From a virus, in IMG/VR virus record IMGVR_UViG_3300009124_000017, positions 1-54,695 of that record: a DNA stretch of 54,695 nt, one strand, 5' to 3'. Within the stretch, counting starts at the first letter, position 1; the number at the start of each line of letters is the position of its first letter. A program made the position numbers and the translations under genes. The notes under the pieces are model-generated. The model did no database searches. It was given only the letters and a program-made list of their open reading frames with translations, and had not been told where the DNA came from. This document shows positions 45,385 to 54,695 of the stretch, one piece after another.

Positions 45385-46440
45385 TCATAGAGCATTGCCT
45401 CTTGGCAACACTTCTTCAGGGAACACAAAGTTCTCATGTGGTTGATCGACTGGTGCCATCCAGGCACGTAGACCTTCATTCAATAGGATGTTCTTGGTAT
45501 AGAACGTCTCGAACTCAGGATCCTCTGCTGCTCTCACCTCCTGACTTACAAAGTCATAAGCACGAAGGTTAAGAGCAAGACCAATAATGCCAATGGAAGA
45601 GGTCCAAAGACCCATAACAGGAACAAAGAGCATGAAGAAATGAAGCCAACGCTTATTGCTAAACGCAATTCCGAAGATCTGTGACCAGAATCTGTTCGCA
45701 GTGACCATCGAATAGGTTTCTTCTTCTTGCGTCGTATCGAATGCTTTGAATGTGTTTGCTTGTTCGCCATCTTCATAAAGAGTATTTTCTACAGTAACAC
45801 CATGAATTGCTGACAGCAGAGCACCACCAAGGATACCTGCTACACCCATCATGTGGAATGGATTCAACGTCCAGTTGTGGAATCCTTGTAGGAAGAGTAG
45901 GAATCTGAAGATTGCTGCGACACCAAAACTGGGAGCAAAGAACCAGGACGATTGTCCCAGAGGATAGATAAGAAATACGCTGACAAACACAGCGATAGGA
46001 CCAGAGAAAGCAATAGCATTGTACGGACGGATACCTACTAAACGACTAATTTCAAATTGGCGAAGCATGAAACCTATGAGAGCAAAGGCTCCGTGGAGCG
46101 CCACAAAATTCCAGAGTCCCCCAAGTTGGAACCAGCGGACGAGATCTCCTTGAGACTCAGGACCCCAAAGTAGAAGAAGAGAATGACCCATAGCGTCAGC
46201 AGGAGTTGACACTGCTGCCGTGAGAAAATTAGCACCCTCAAGATAAGAAGACGCCAACCCGTGGGTATACCAGCTTGTAACAAACGTCGTGCCAGTAAGC
46301 CAGCCACCAATTGCCATATAAGCAGTGGGAAAAAGAAGTAGTCCAGACCAGCCCACAAAGACAAAGCGGTCGCGTTTAAGCCAGTCATCCAAGACATCGA
46401 ACCATCCTCTCTGCGGGGGTGAAAGTGTTGAAGCAGTCAT
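45385..46440 (-). CDS. psbD: Photosystem II D2 protein PsbD
   Basis: 351 residues, close to the usual cyanobacterial length (352). Five transmembrane helices and the conserved D2 segments are clear: [43 protein letters not shown] with the special-pair and iron-ligand His, and the C-terminal [24 protein letters not shown] lies eight bases upstream of the ATG. Phage psbD helps keep photosystem II active during infection, together with phage psbA 1.7 kb upstream. Confidence 0.97.
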
Positions 46441-46443
46441 TAA

Positions 46444-46734
46444 TTATACTCCATATTTGTCGAAAGTTTTTCTAATGTTCTGTGTGATCTGCATACCTCC
46501 CGTGAAAGATTCTAACATCTCACCAGCATCATCTGTGACAATGAGAACTGGAGTAGCAGTAACCTTATACTGTTTTGCAAGTGCAAGGTTTTCTTCTGGA
46601 ATAGGAATATCACTAAAGTCTTCAAGGTCAACCTTTTCAATTAGAGATGTACGTTCATCCTTAATAGACTTCATGTATTTGTCTACAAGAGCACAAGGAC
46701 CACAAGATTGCTTAGAGAATAATAGAAATTTCAT
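46444..46734 (-). CDS. Thioredoxin-like protein
   Basis: 96 residues with thioredoxin active site C11-G-P-C14, a Y-K-V-T-A-T-P-V cis-proline segment and a G-G strand (FTGGMQITQ). Slightly shorter than cellular thioredoxins. It lies between psbD and the methyltransferase gene and is preceded by a CTAAATA box (46769-46775) and a small 7-bp hairpin (46749-46765). It may reduce phage ribonucleotide reductase or host redox targets. Confidence 0.85.
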   Translation of the reverse strand: MKFLLFSKQSCGPCALVDKYMKSIKDERTSLIEKVDLEDFSDIPIPEENLALAKQYKVTATPVLIVTDDAGEMLESFTGGMQITQNIRKTFDKYGV

Positions 46735-46768: not shown

Positions 46769-46775
46769 TATTTAG
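46769..46775 (-). promoter_or_regulatory. Late-type promoter box CTAAATA upstream of thioredoxin and psbD
   Basis: The minus strand reads ATCCTAAATAAGG, directly after the methyltransferase stop, 35 bases before the thioredoxin ATG. Between box and ATG is AAAGTTT/AAACTTT, a perfect 7-bp hairpin (46749-46765). It could give psbD late expression. Confidence 0.5.
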
Positions 46776-46779
46776 GATA

Positions 46780-47535
46780 TCATCCTTGAAGGAATTTGTC
46801 AAGGGGAGCGTGCTTTGCAATTCTAAGTTCTGCAGTTTCACAGTAAGACTTGCTCATGTCAATGCCAATGTATTTTCTCCCAAGTTTATGTGCAACATAG
46901 GTGGTGGTGCCTGCTCCATTAAAAGGATCAAGAACCACGTCACCCTTGTAAGAAAATAGTTTCAAGCAACGCTCTACTAATTCTTCGGGAAACATTGCTG
47001 GGTGTCCATAGTCTTTCATCTTAGTCTCTGGTGCCATAGACCAGTGACCATTGACATACTTAATGAATTCATCTTTAGTAATGTCAATGTCTTCTTTGTT
47101 TCCAGGATGCTTGAGAGTATCTTTACTGAAAACTTCAATGAACTCAAATGGATACGATAGATATGGACATGATGGTGACTTCCAACTACCCCATGCTGTG
47201 AGCTTTCGGAGATTATTCTTCAACCAAATAATCTCTCCTCTCCAGATCATACCTTCACCAATCATTCTCTGGGTGATCTTGTGATGAGTAGGGAAGTATT
47301 GTTTATAGTTGGGTTGGATGTTGATAATAAGTCTGCCACCAGACTTCAACACACGCTTACACTCAACAAAGACTGCAAGAATTTTCTCAAGATATTCATC
47401 AGCATCACCATCATCATCGTGAGTATCATACTCCATACCATAGTTGTATGGAGGTGAAGTCAAAACAATATCAACAGACTCATCGTCCATTTCTTTCAGT
47501 GCAACGAGAGAATCTGAACAGATGATCTCATTCAT
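46780..47535 (-). CDS. N4-cytosine-type DNA methyltransferase (type II R-M partner)
   Basis: 251 residues. The catalytic motif TSPPY (26-30), most often found in N4-cytosine methyltransferases, comes before the AdoMet-binding motif DPFNGAGTT (203-211), i.e. beta-class order. GRKYIGID (219-226) is the next motif. The start overlaps the endonuclease gene's TGA by four bases (ATGA). With that neighbour it forms what looks like a complete type II restriction-modification pair. Its methylated site is unproven; CTAG is predicted from the endonuclease family. Confidence 0.85.
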   Translation of the reverse strand: MNEIICSDSLVALKEMDDESVDIVLTSPPYNYGMEYDTHDDDGDADEYLEKILAVFVECKRVLKSGGRLIINIQPNYKQYFPTHHKITQRMIGEGMIWRGEIIWLKNNLRKLTAWGSWKSPSCPYLSYPFEFIEVFSKDTLKHPGNKEDIDITKDEFIKYVNGHWSMAPETKMKDYGHPAMFPEELVERCLKLFSYKGDVVLDPFNGAGTTTYVAHKLGRKYIGIDMSKSYCETAELRIAKHAPLDKFLQG

Positions 47536-48050
47536 ACAATCTTAACTCCTTTAGATCCATTAGTATAGTAGATGATGCGATAAGGAATAGTTTCCTTGCC
47601 AGCATTGATAGTCTTCTTATAAGTGTTCGGTTTGATTGAGACTGGTTCGTCACCAATGAAACCATCAATGCCTTTTGCTTCTTCCTCTACGTTAGCAAGA
47701 CGATAAGACTTACCAGCAGCACACAATTTTAGCACATCGAGTTGAATTTGCAACCCTGAGTGAGTCTTATTGATGATAAGATCTTTGGTCCATGCACGAA
47801 CATCATCTTTAGTAAGTTCGTTAAGGTTCTCTTTCATAGCAAGGACACATTCCCAGATCTTATCTGCTGCAGCATCAATCTTATCATCACCATCATAGAA
47901 CTTCTCCCAGTCATTAACTTCATGACTGGCACACTGATCTCTAAACTGCTGAATCAATTCACTCATCTGACCCACATGTTTAGGTCTGGTTGCCTGCGAA
48001 AAACTGTTAGCAAGGTTGATGACGGATCCAATGTATTTGAGAAGTGCCAT
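47532..48050 (-). CDS. MjaI-family type II restriction endonuclease
   Basis: 172 residues. The N-terminal block (INLANSFSQATRPKHVGQMS) and the core (INKTHSGLQIQ, KGIDGFIGDEPVSIKPNTYK) match what I recall of the RE_MjaI family. MjaI cuts CTAG. The core fits a PD-(D/E)XK active site: D129 in GIDG, then I-K140. Such genes are unusual in cyanophages. It is transcribed with the methyltransferase and lies just below the psbA terminator and a -10-like TATAAT. Unprotected host DNA with CTAG sites could be a target. Confidence 0.75.
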   Translation of the reverse strand: MALLKYIGSVINLANSFSQATRPKHVGQMSELIQQFRDQCASHEVNDWEKFYDGDDKIDAAADKIWECVLAMKENLNELTKDDVRAWTKDLIINKTHSGLQIQLDVLKLCAAGKSYRLANVEEEAKGIDGFIGDEPVSIKPNTYKKTINAGKETIPYRIIYYTNGSKGVKIV

Positions 48051-48071: not shown

Positions 48072-48106
48072 ATTATAGCATAAAAAAGGACCCCAGTGGG
48101 GTCCTT
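48072..48106 (-). terminator. psbA terminator followed by an extended -10
   Basis: Stem AAGGACCCC/GGGGTCCTT with loop ACT, then a T run on the minus strand (48082-48106), ending psbA. Directly after it comes ATGCTATAAT (TATAAT 48072-48077), an extended -10 that could start the R-M transcript at about 48065. TTTTTTATGCTATAAT is identical at the thyX operon promoter, though no good -35 is seen here. Confidence 0.7.
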
Positions 48107-48128: not shown

Positions 48129-49211
48129 TCAACCGATAGCAGGTGCGGTGAGAGCAACAGGAGTGCTTTCAGCAGCAGCAAGGTCGAGGGGGAAGTTGTG
48201 AGCATTGCGCTCGTGCATCACTTCCATGCCAAGACCAGCACGGTTGAGAACGTCTGCCCAGGTGTTCAGGACTTTGCCCTGACTATCCATGATGGACTGG
48301 TTGAAGTTGAAACCGTTGAGGTTGAATGCCATGGTGCTAACACCAAGAGCAGTGAACCAGATACCGACAACAGGCCATGCTGCGAGGAAGAAGTGCAGCG
48401 AACGGGAGTTGTTGAAGGAAGCGTATTGGAAGATCAGGCGACCGAAGTAACCGTGAGCAGCAACGATGTTGTAGGTCTCTTCTTCTTGACCGAACTTGTA
48501 ACCATAGTTCTGGGACTCAGACTCAGTGGTTTCACGAACCAGCGAGGAAGTAACCAGAGAACCGTGCATCGCACTGAACAGAGAACCACCGAACACGCCA
48601 GCAACGCCGAGCATGTGGAAGGGGTGCATCAGAATGTTGTGCTCTGCTTGGAAGACAAGCATATAGTTGAAGGTGCCACTAATACCCAGGGGCATAGCAT
48701 CGGAGAACGAACCTTGACCGAAAGGATAGACCAGGAAGACAGCAGATGCTGCTGCAACAGGAGCTGAATATGCAACACAGATCCAGGGGCGCATACCCAG
48801 GCGGTAAGAAAGTTCCCACTCACGTCCCATGTAAGCATAGATGCCAATCAGGAAGTGGAAGATAACAAGTTGGAAAGGACCACCGTTATAGAGCCACTCA
48901 TCGAGAGAAGCAGCTTCCCAGATGGGATAGAAGTGCAGACCGATTGCGTTGGAAGAGGGCACAACAGCACCAGAGATGATGTTGTTGCCATACATGAGGG
49001 AACCAGCAACTGGTTCACGGATGCCGTCAATGTCCACAGGGGGAGCAGCAATGAAGGCAACAATGAAACAGATAGTAGCAGCAAGGAGGCAAGGAATCAT
49101 GAGGACCCCGAACCAACCAACATAAAGACGGTTGTCAGTGCTGGTTACCCAGTTACAAAACTGTTCCCATTGAGAAGTATTCTGTTGTTGTGAAAGAGTA
49201 GATGAAGCCAT
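48129..49211 (-). CDS. psbA: Photosystem II D1 protein PsbA
   Basis: 360 residues from the ATG at 49211 ([20 protein letters not shown]); the frame can be extended four codons to a TTG, which is less likely. Canonical D1 segments include [30 protein letters not shown], the [19 protein letters not shown] iron/QB region and the C-terminal [13 protein letters not shown] processing site. At the position equivalent to residue 130 (MGREWEL) it has Glu, as in high-light D1:2 forms, rather than Gln. Intron-free. It maintains photosystem II during infection. Its own promoter lies at 49384-49412. Confidence 0.97.
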
Positions 49212-52500: not shown

Positions 52501-53240
52501 CGACAAGAGTTGTAAGTGTCGATACTGCCCAGGGAATCGTTGAACTCTCTCAAAACATCACTGGTTCTGGTGGTACTGGTGTATTCGAAGCACTCGGACC
52601 AACAGATGAGGCAGCTAATGGTGGTGGATTGATTCTGAAAGGAACAACTGTAGATAAAACAATCCTATACGATAACAACAGAGCAAATAAGTATTGGACA
52701 TTCTCAGAAAACATTGAGATCAAAAACAACAGACACATTGCTATCAATGGTGTTGAACTACTCACTGGTACTACACTTGGAACAACTGTTGTCAACTCTT
52801 CACTGACATCTGTTGGTACTCTTCAATCTCTTGCTGTTACTGGTGCTGCATCATTTGGTGGTCGCATCAAAGAAAGCAATGACAATGCATTTGACACTAT
52901 TCTATCACCAAATGCTGGTGTCCTTACAATTAATACTGCTACTTCTAACACTATATGTGGAGCACCAACAGCAAACTCTATTAACACATGGGCATTCACT
53001 AATGTCAATCTAAATAATGGTGAGACACTAACTGTTACTCTTGTATTAGATTCAAATACAAGTGCTTTGTACGGAGACGATTGTACTGTTGACGGTAACA
53101 CTATTACTAATGGTGTTAAGTGGTCTGGAGGTTCTCCACCACTACCCACAAATAATTATGACATTCTCACCTTTATCATTGTAAAGGATGGTGATGGAAC
53201 TATCCAAGTATTTGGTCAAGGTAACACAGACTTCAGCTAA
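49578..53240 (+). CDS. Long tail fibre protein with YadA-like head repeats
   Basis: 1220 residues. The start MADRFPLIVNASSRKIEELV and several 'NLTV-NG-TTT' hairpins are hallmarks of cyanophage long fibres. The middle (~710-850) has tandem repeats built on N-V/T-x-I/V/M-G and A-x-x-x-N-x-x-G (for example NNVAMGKNA and NNTGG-type turns). This is the left-handed beta-roll of trimeric autotransporter (YadA) heads. Low-complexity Thr/Asn-rich strands dominate the N-terminal half. It is likely a distal or proximal long-tail-fibre subunit for host recognition. First gene of a late operon. Confidence 0.82.
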   Translation: MADRFPLIVNASSRKIEELVAGDNLDLTGNGIVINGDVGDGKYLKSDGGFAIWDNPGDVYLTATQTVTNKVFETCTLSGTLNTITNIPNTSLVNPGITINGSTVALGASITTPNDNTTYEINAVDGLTDAQKIIRLTDSSSNTDDVTFSVGTPATIPTGSNALSLFLTRNGDNITLSGHVIDNNTVTTVQSFSGGTAQSGAIILKGSGGATITQDVQTKTIQIDTRNDDTITQLRTGLAGVYADGDFTFLQGGATTVSQAANGTTGDPEITISSTDTVTRVRGGSTSSFLPSTTGTANTDVTFIGGSHRDSSVSVVQNGNNIEIDAFNTDTVTKIGSVASNGTFAVQSGDFRFTSSGDAELTQTTNGGVTEIDISFTNTDTGAGLGAANGIILNSGNFELKNAGALTDQKLVKWDSANAQLVNSLVEDNGTTVTIAGNLNVTGTTTTFDSTVLKVADPIIELRKGASLTGADGGIQINRTTTADSVVSQWIQLQWYETGGYFRTLDNSGVAKRLVTESDEQTLTNKTLESATFTGTSALGVATATTINGLAISQTISSTLDFADQKTLTVNNTLTFNATDGAVINFSAGGGTGALVAYNSFNLGQFATTTSVQLRGTISDPTGSGQLVFNTTPTISTAINTSDASFSVFNINAQTINAFGAATSLNLGAATGTTLIKNSLDVNGDVVLNTNDTDTFVVEGIPNFDKNDITIRGTSTNPMTIGRGNGGVSTNTAIGHEVLGSNQSGSQNTGVGFEALGLNVSGLGNCAFGDGALVSNDVGNNNVAMGKNAALTNTGGDHNVAIGNDSLYSANTGNDNVCIGAFAGYNMTGSGNVLIGSGRPIGDPAIAGATYQPPSVGGSVQLVIGSTTEVSGSRVSGTWIKGDNQFNVTMENNVSVGGELTVDGNLTVNGTTTTINVQTIQIDDNALELAAVQLAQFGGNVTNGSPFVTNVQSLTGVVPGMEVQVVSGTSLPAGTTRVVSVDTAQGIVELSQNITGSGGTGVFEALGPTDEAANGGGLILKGTTVDKTILYDNNRANKYWTFSENIEIKNNRHIAINGVELLTGTTLGTTVVNSSLTSVGTLQSLAVTGAASFGGRIKESNDNAFDTILSPNAGVLTINTATSNTICGAPTANSINTWAFTNVNLNNGETLTVTLVLDSNTSALYGDDCTVDGNTITNGVKWSGGSPPLPTNNYDILTFIIVKDGDGTIQVFGQGNTDFS

Positions 53241-53250
53241 GGAACGATAA

Positions 53251-54695
53251 ATGCCAGTAAGTTATAGCAGTCCCGCAAGAAATCTGTTCTTGTTAGGTAC
53301 TACAGGACAGGACGTAGTAACTAATTTCTTTGACAAAATTGACAGATCATCATCTGGATATTTTAGTTTTCTTCCTGTAGAAGTTATTAAAAATAATGTC
53401 GATGAAGAAATTCTCATTGGTTTGAATGCTGATGAAGTATCTCCATCTCAAAGAAATTTTGGTATCATTGAAAAAAGATTAGAGGATGGTACTCAAGAGT
53501 GGGAAACTTTTGTTTCTGCTACCGATCCTAATCAACAAGCATTTCTTCGAGACATTCATTTAGATAGTAACAATAATATTATTGCTTGTGGTGAGGCTGG
53601 TGGATTTCCTTGGATTGCTAAGTATTCTAATGGTGGTGTAATTGATTGGACTTCAACCTCATCAAGCGGAAGTGTTACATACAACGGAGTATCTTCTGAT
53701 AGCAGCGGACAATACTATGCCTGTGGCAACACACCAGAATCAGGAGAAGCACGAGCATTTGTAGAGAAGTTTGATGGCAGTGGTAATCCTGATTGGGGTA
53801 AGTCTGCTTTCATGTTAGGCAGAGATGTTGTCCTCAATGATATTGCTGTTAATGATAGAGGTCATGTAGTTGCTGTTGGTTATCTTGAAGACGATAGTGC
53901 AGACAAAGCATATATTATCAAGATTGATACTAACACTGGTGAAGTTCTATGGGACAGAACTTTATCAAAGTCTGTGGATGTTAGAGCACTTGCTATAACC
54001 ATCGACGATGCAGATGAAATTTATATTGCTGGTGTAAGTGGAACAGAAGATGTCGATACCGATGGTTTTGTCGTCAAATATACTGCCGAAGGTAATATGT
54101 TATGGCAATCAGAAACAGACATCGGTAGCACCACTAATGACTGGATTGTTTTCTCAGACATTGCTGTTGATAATTCTTCTAAGAAAGCATCTATAGGTGG
54201 ATATACTTCTGCTGGGGCAATTGTTATTTCAAGATATGAATCAGATGGAAGATTGTCATGGAGAAGAGAAGCATATCAAGTCACTGCTGGACATCAATAT
54301 ACTTCCATTGATGTAGATCAATCATTTACCTATTTCTTATTTGACGATGGACTTAATCAATATGATTACACTTTCGGAAAAGTAAGTGCAACTGGTAATG
54401 GTTTAGGTGACTTTGAATATAACAATGGAGACGGTTCAGGAATTCCAATTCAGTATGTTCCAACTACAAGTCAAAATGGAACTAATATCACAGAGAAAAT
54501 CGGTAAACTATCTGATGGTTCTGTAAGAAACGACACCAGCGATCTCATCACCTATCCATTCAACGCTAACAAACTACTCTTTGATGACCTTGCTACTCAG
54601 GTCTCTAACAAGAGAAGGCAGATGGATAGTGCTGATAGCTTTGAGTATAGTGGTAGTCCTGCTATTAGACCAGTAGATTTTCCTTCTCTCTACTT
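53251..54695 (+). CDS. Beta-propeller-like virion protein, partial
   Basis: Begins MPVSYSSPARNLFLLGTTGQ at 53251, with an AAGGA seven bases before the ATG, and runs open to the window edge (481 codons seen). Repeated units of ~45-60 residues each carry a strand like D-I-x-x-x-x-x-x-N-I-I-A-C-G or Y-I-A-G-V, then V-x-K-Y/F-x-x-x-G-x-x-x-W. This is the pattern of SBBP/quinoprotein-type beta-propeller blades. Co-transcribed with the tail fibre, so a fibre accessory or receptor-contact role is inferred. Confidence 0.7.
   Translation, partial: MPVSYSSPARNLFLLGTTGQDVVTNFFDKIDRSSSGYFSFLPVEVIKNNVDEEILIGLNADEVSPSQRNFGIIEKRLEDGTQEWETFVSATDPNQQAFLRDIHLDSNNNIIACGEAGGFPWIAKYSNGGVIDWTSTSSSGSVTYNGVSSDSSGQYYACGNTPESGEARAFVEKFDGSGNPDWGKSAFMLGRDVVLNDIAVNDRGHVVAVGYLEDDSADKAYIIKIDTNTGEVLWDRTLSKSVDVRALAITIDDADEIYIAGVSGTEDVDTDGFVVKYTAEGNMLWQSETDIGSTTNDWIVFSDIAVDNSSKKASIGGYTSAGAIVISRYESDGRLSWRREAYQVTAGHQYTSIDVDQSFTYFLFDDGLNQYDYTFGKVSATGNGLGDFEYNNGDGSGIPIQYVPTTSQNGTNITEKIGKLSDGSVRNDTSDLITYPFNANKLLFDDLATQVSNKRRQMDSADSFEYSGSPAIRPVDFPSLY

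Follow-up and report, generated by a model that had tools for sequence, protein, structure and literature searches.

A putative CTAG-specific restriction-modification cassette of T4-like cyanophages and the depletion of CTAG in its carriers

Between the photosynthesis genes psbA and psbD of a 54,695-base virus sequence (IMGVR_UViG_3300009124_000017, analysed over its whole length and referred to here as the window) lies an overlapping pair of genes that is very probably a functional, complete type II restriction-modification cassette, its cleavage and methylation activities being inferred. CTAG is the sole tetranucleotide depleted together with the endonuclease gene, which makes it very likely that the enzyme works in nature with CTAG as its recognition sequence, cleavage being an inference made without biochemistry. 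We hold with considerable confidence that the endonuclease cuts CTAG, the methyltransferase protects CTAG and the pair attacks foreign DNA, with attendant loss of sites. In this scheme the family, the pairing, purifying selection, CTAG-only depletion, zero sites in a complete genome lacking the methyltransferase and the varied positions of the cassette are computed, and cleavage, methylation, timing and target DNA are inferred.

Organisation of the cassette and its two proteins

The window aligns with Synechococcus phage S-H9-2 (Kyanoviridae) at 95.3% identity over 54.2 kb; the carrier is a lytic T4-like cyanophage of the Kyanoviridae, close to S-H9-2. All features of the locus are on the minus strand. 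The upstream neighbour of the endonuclease gene is psbA (48129-49208), and between the two is an intrinsic-terminator-like hairpin (48086-48106; 9-bp stem, AAGGACCCC-ACT-GGGGTCCTT, then a T run) that is identical in S-H9-2 and S-RIM32 and nearly identical in contig L011. A putative -10 element, TATAAT with TGC just before it (48072-48077), would belong to a putative cassette promoter for which there is no experimental test; a promoter scan of the region reported no matching -35. There follow the genes for a 172-residue RE_MjaI-family type II restriction endonuclease (47532-48050; CTAG recognition inferred) and a 251-residue beta-type DNA amino-methyltransferase (46780-47535; CTAG protection inferred), which overlap, endonuclease gene first, in a four-nucleotide start/stop ATGA (47532-47535), and downstream of these a 96-residue thioredoxin-like ORF (46444-46734) and psbD (45385-46440). 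The first-pass annotation had read the ORF positions, the ATGA overlap and the protein motifs correctly, and its placing of the pair between psbD and psbA is confirmed. This order of psbA, pair, thioredoxin-like ORF and psbD is common to S-H9-2 and S-RIM32, and an ORF pair with such family matches and conserved order is far beyond chance. A promoter-like TTGACA-17-TATCCT (10 of 12 positions) is also present at 46774-46802, also on the minus strand, in the stretch separating the end of the methyltransferase gene from the thioredoxin-like ORF; matches of this kind are no more numerous in the region than chance would give.

The endonuclease, which contains KGIDGFIGDEPVSIKP, was earlier said only to resemble the RE_MjaI family, an assignment now secured by a profile search: Pfam RE_MjaI (PF09568) matches across the whole domain (positions 3-164 of 164) at 157.3 bits and E 3.9e-46, the gathering cut-off being 22.7 bits, and PADLOC REase_II matches at 3.2e-46. 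Residues E124, G127-I128-D129-G130 and I139-K140 are invariant in 26 endonuclease sequences, down to about 42% identity, and with a dN/dS of about 0.095 the gene is under strong purifying selection. In a confident AlphaFold model of the protein (pLDDT 90.1, pTM 0.64) the order of helices and strands in the C-terminal half is compatible with PD-(D/E)XK, and the (D/E)XK motif reads S/Q-I-K, its acidic position being occupied by S or Q, with E124, D129 and K140 invariant. Foldseek gave no significant match for the model (the top hit, at E 0.54, was 3ndh, a restriction endonuclease) and a PDB sequence search gave chance matches only; a PD-(D/E)XK fold is, as far as model and Foldseek go, not established. 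The corresponding psbA-psbD interval of S-PM2 houses a homing endonuclease, F-CphI. A homing endonuclease at this site in the window is ruled out by the lack of a matching domain, as neither protein of the pair has a Pfam match to HNH/endonuclease VII, GIY-YIG or LAGLIDADG.

The 251-residue protein has TSPPY near residue 26 ahead of DPFNGAGTT near residue 203, which is the beta order of amino-methyltransferase motifs IV and I, and matches Pfam N6_N4_Mtase (PF01555, 4.2e-46) and PADLOC MTase_II (2.4e-72). Among solved structures it is related, at E about 1e-22, to the DNA cytosine-N4 methyltransferases 8s9m/8s9n, and other amino-methyltransferases of known structure match as well; its dN/dS is 0.067. 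The two genes are separate and adjacent in the window, and the pairing is kept across relatives, the methyltransferase adjoining the endonuclease in 20 of 25 IMG/VR loci (isolates and the distant L034 left out). The overlap, the Pfam and PADLOC matches and the conserved pairing bear out the earlier suggestion of a matched partner, and the conserved pairing rules out an orphan methyltransferase beside an unrelated neighbour.

In all, the endonuclease was found in 29 IMG/VR loci, most of which have the methyltransferase directly after it; S-SM2 and its relatives among the contigs, L019-L023, have no methyltransferase there. Archaeal and bacterial relatives of the endonuclease are about 40-43% identical, and in a Candidatus Zipacnadia MAG (L039, 5001-5432) an RE_MjaI-like frame that is interrupted by a stop codon, apparently through decay of the gene or an error in the sequence, has a divergent methyltransferase nearby. 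The genes are not new, being named in public records: isolate annotations give a type II restriction enzyme and a methylase in S-H9-2, S-RIM32 and S-CAM3, and the enzyme alone in S-SM2. The pair, presented earlier as an unusual find in the photosynthesis cassette, does lie at the psbA-psbD site, and it had been recorded before. The annotated orthologues are 92-99% identical (62% in S-SM2) and share the overlap where paired, but the records supply a name only, with no specificity, activity or relation between orphan and zero sites, and a literature search on this cyanophage restriction-modification system found nothing specific. What is new is the genome-wide test of function.

CTAG depletion in carriers of the endonuclease gene

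An endonuclease that is active and reads CTAG would be expected to cost its carriers their CTAG. Observed against composition-expected counts, made on fetched DNA and with the CTAG content of host genomes outside the comparison, are 10/199 in the window, 61/676 in S-H9-2, 32/696 in S-RIM32 and 79/728 in S-CAM3, so that the window and the isolates with both genes retain 5-11% of the composition expectation. By comparison, 12 non-carrier genomes, in which absence of RE_MjaI was checked with the Pfam profile, have 0.85-1.18 of the Markov expectation. No other of the 136 strand-merged tetranucleotides divides the carriers completely from the non-carriers as CTAG does (z -33.9, or -29.6 after adding two more non-carriers). 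The carriers are partly related, representing about three independent lineages plus contigs. Three of these IMG/VR contigs have CTAG counts of 70/391 (G009), 16/196 (G011) and 77/151 (G003); with the contigs counted as carriers CTAG keeps the lowest score (z -11.8), and full separation is lost because of G003, which has both genes and is hardly depleted (77 observed vs 91 Markov), a weak depletion that needs recent acquisition as its explanation. Set against a gp23 background, the metagenomic MjaI contigs again have CTAG lowest with other words close behind, and the isolate comparison is therefore the main test.

The same loss is seen site by site. When S-RIM44, which lacks the endonuclease, is aligned with S-RIM32, which has it, only 8 of 402 S-RIM44 CTAG sites (2%) persist, whereas the other palindromes occurring in S-RIM44 persist at 25-51% of orthologous positions. 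A compositional artefact is ruled out by the Markov expectation, the orthologous-site test and the all-tetranucleotide comparison. CTAG as the target, put forward at first by reference to the type member of the family, is supported, indirectly, by independent genome-wide depletion and orthologous-site loss.

Under-representation of a restriction site is familiar in phage genomes, where it is attributed to host enzymes (PMC6286503), and the selecting enzyme could here too be the host's, with the phage pair merely carried along, or with its methyltransferase serving anti-restriction while the endonuclease stays idle; avoidance of host restriction-modification sites is common among phages (PMC6286503), and the methyltransferase could ward off host restriction without the endonuclease. 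However, among four phages recorded on strain WH8102 the gene and the shortage of CTAG are both confined to S-H9-2; Sf-CH1a, S-H35 and S-SSM5 have normal CTAG. That same-host phages differ according to presence of the gene is evidence against a host cause, and makes host-driven avoidance unlikely. The depletion moreover tracks the endonuclease gene and leaves no site at all in the one isolate without the methyltransferase, and the endonuclease is under strong purifying selection; we regard the host explanation as very improbable. In the CTAG carriers the selecting enzyme would, unlike that in the earlier work, be the phage's own.

Under the preferred explanation, a working phage cassette, a single transcript would yield both a CTAG-cutting enzyme and its protector, the RE_MjaI endonuclease cutting unmethylated CTAG and the overlapping methyltransferase shielding the CTAG sites of the phage itself. 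In the infected cell the endonuclease would attack unprotected CTAG in the host chromosome, in co-infecting phage or in both. Self-cutting would have selected away nearly all CTAG in carriers, so that protection would come from methylation and site loss together.

Endonucleases without a methyltransferase

In S-SM2, CTAG is absent from all 190,789 bp (Markov 290, composition 686), and the genome has neither a homologue of the cassette methyltransferase nor a PF01555 protein. Residual CTAG is found, among isolates with the endonuclease, only where the methyltransferase is present, and none remains in the endonuclease-only S-SM2; the orphan-endonuclease contigs L019 and L020 keep two CTAG each. 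Orphan restriction enzymes are normally lethal to their owner. In this lineage too the endonuclease has a dN/dS of about 0.1 or lower. The order at the S-SM2-type site is ORF065-endonuclease-methyltransferase-helicase in L031 and L033 and ORF065-endonuclease-helicase in L019-L023, which is most simply read as loss of the methyltransferase in the S-SM2 group, a direction inferred from these gene orders. With the methyltransferase gone, protection in this lineage would rest on total absence of sites.

The rule that an endonuclease without a methyltransferase goes with zero sites is repeated by an unrelated cyanophage enzyme at GTAC. A 203-residue 'hypothetical protein' of S-RIM44 (55575-56186; L055:5575-6183), which belongs to T4-like cluster GC495, is recognised by the PADLOC profile REase_II (4.5e-16), and has a near-identical copy in Syn1 (Syn1_065) and another in S-SSM5 (S-SSM5_058). 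GTAC counts over whole genomes are 0 of 713 expected in S-RIM44 and 0 of 694 in Syn1, neither of which encodes the GC467-type methyltransferase of S-SSM5 or a PF01555 protein. In S-SSM5 the GC495 protein gene is overlapped by that methyltransferase gene, and GTAC stands at 322/631. IMG/VR loci with GC495 follow suit: GTAC is zero in ten without an identified methyltransferase (in two of these the DNA ends too early downstream to judge) and nearly always non-zero where one is adjacent. GTAC is present without an adjacent methyltransferase in L283 and L284, which have one elsewhere, and in L291, L292 and L299. The GC495 protein is likely to be a GTAC-specific phage restriction enzyme.

Other adjoining or overlapping pairs occur in T4-like cyanophages, in ACG-2014j (an endonuclease annotated R.RsaI and a methyltransferase) and in Sf-CH1a, where genes annotated as a GIY-YIG nuclease and a D12-class methyltransferase overlap in restriction-modification-like fashion (52516-53939; L056:2516-3939). 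Both involve other endonuclease families, and ACG-2014j has no extra loss of GTAC (285/671). Relatives of the Sf-CH1a nuclease are also present in S-P4 and S-PM2.

Further words are missing from these genomes. CCGG occurs 0 or 1 times in the counted DNA (up to 198 kb) of the window and most cyanomyoviruses examined, and is present in S-SM2, ACG-2014j and contigs G003, G009 and G011. A 110-residue ORF with a weak PDDEXK_15 match (161639-161971 in S-RIM44, 96298-96627 in S-H9-2) is found in eight genomes, none of which has more than one CCGG in the counted DNA, and is absent from S-SM2 and ACG-2014j; the case for it as a possible cause of CCGG loss is weakened by six other CCGG-poor genomes without the ORF. 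In the 80 kb of P-SSM2 sampled (L256-L259) CGCG, GCGC and CCGG are all zero, possibly through further phage or host enzymes.

Mobility, target DNA and significance

The CTAG cassette occupies three genomic sites spanning different genera, psbA-psbD (S-H9-2, S-RIM32), regA-hsp20 (S-CAM3) and beside the GC36 helicase (S-SM2 group), with empty counterparts at psbA-psbD in S-CAM3 and at regA-hsp20 in S-H9-2. Since the pair also sits at two sites outside the photosynthesis cassette, the psbA-psbD position is probably unconnected with photosynthesis. TATAAT precedes the endonuclease gene at the psbA site and at several regA-site loci, and the cassette therefore probably carries a promoter of its own, predicted from the recurrence of this element and without experimental test. 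In L010, L013, L014 and S-CAM3 the -10 element upstream of the endonuclease is flanked by inverted repeats that differ between loci (in L010, for example, TTTGATTGAATA ... TATTCAATCAAA) and that might act as operators or form RNA hairpins.

These varied sites, with their empty counterparts, would also suit a working restriction-modification pair that persists chiefly as a selfish element, furthering its own passage from phage to phage without profit to the phage, as would the identity of the endonuclease and methyltransferase DNA to that of S-H9-2 (99.2-99.5%, vs 93.8% for psbA and 95.3% for the whole window). An addiction model does not, however, predict that the endonuclease of S-SM2-like phages should stay under constraint once the methyltransferase is gone, nor is an added benefit to the phage excluded, and we consider a mainly selfish role unlikely. 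The cassette is best read as a mobile restriction-modification system that lytic phages turn against the DNA of the host or of rivals, the victim being inferred.

Within this best explanation, the main target could be rival phage DNA (superinfection exclusion) and not the host chromosome. Non-carrier cyanophages hold hundreds of CTAG (642 in S-RIM44, 631 in Syn1) that would be cut in co-infection, but in chloroviruses, which have been studied most closely, the virus restriction enzymes are held to act on and degrade host DNA and are reported not to bring about mutual exclusion (PMC7019647), and a mainly rival-directed role is a tentative possibility. Chloroviruses are the closest functional parallel, sharing a virus-encoded endonuclease with an adjacent methyltransferase and proposed action on host DNA; they differ in being algal viruses with methylated genomes whose endonucleases are packaged in the virion (PMC7019647).

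Among known systems, that of MjaI from Methanocaldococcus jannaschii, which recognises CTAG, is one of the closest. The cyanophage enzyme belongs to the same family (PF09568, far above cut-off) and has the same inferred target, and M. jannaschii was the only control genome to match the RE_MjaI profile. MjaI serves a cell, whereas the cyanophage version resides in lytic phages whose genomes are CTAG-poor and of which one lineage lacks the methyltransferase.

It is probable, though held with less assurance than the reading of the cassette itself, that lytic T4-like cyanophages use restriction enzymes as weapons and make themselves immune in one of two ways: they methylate their DNA and lose part of the sites, or they remove the sites totally from a genome of about 190 kb, after which the methyltransferase is dispensable and orphans are stable. 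The CTAG and GTAC enzymes are the instances of this, and CCGG hints at more. What a phage restriction enzyme recognises, and whether it is active in nature, can be read out from sequence alone, and words at zero can lead to further phage restriction enzymes that have escaped notice and to their specificities. The findings point to discrimination of self from non-self in which the phage's target sites are deleted and not marked, and make testable the breakdown of host DNA, or the exclusion of competitors, by lytic phages in abundant marine photosynthetic cells.
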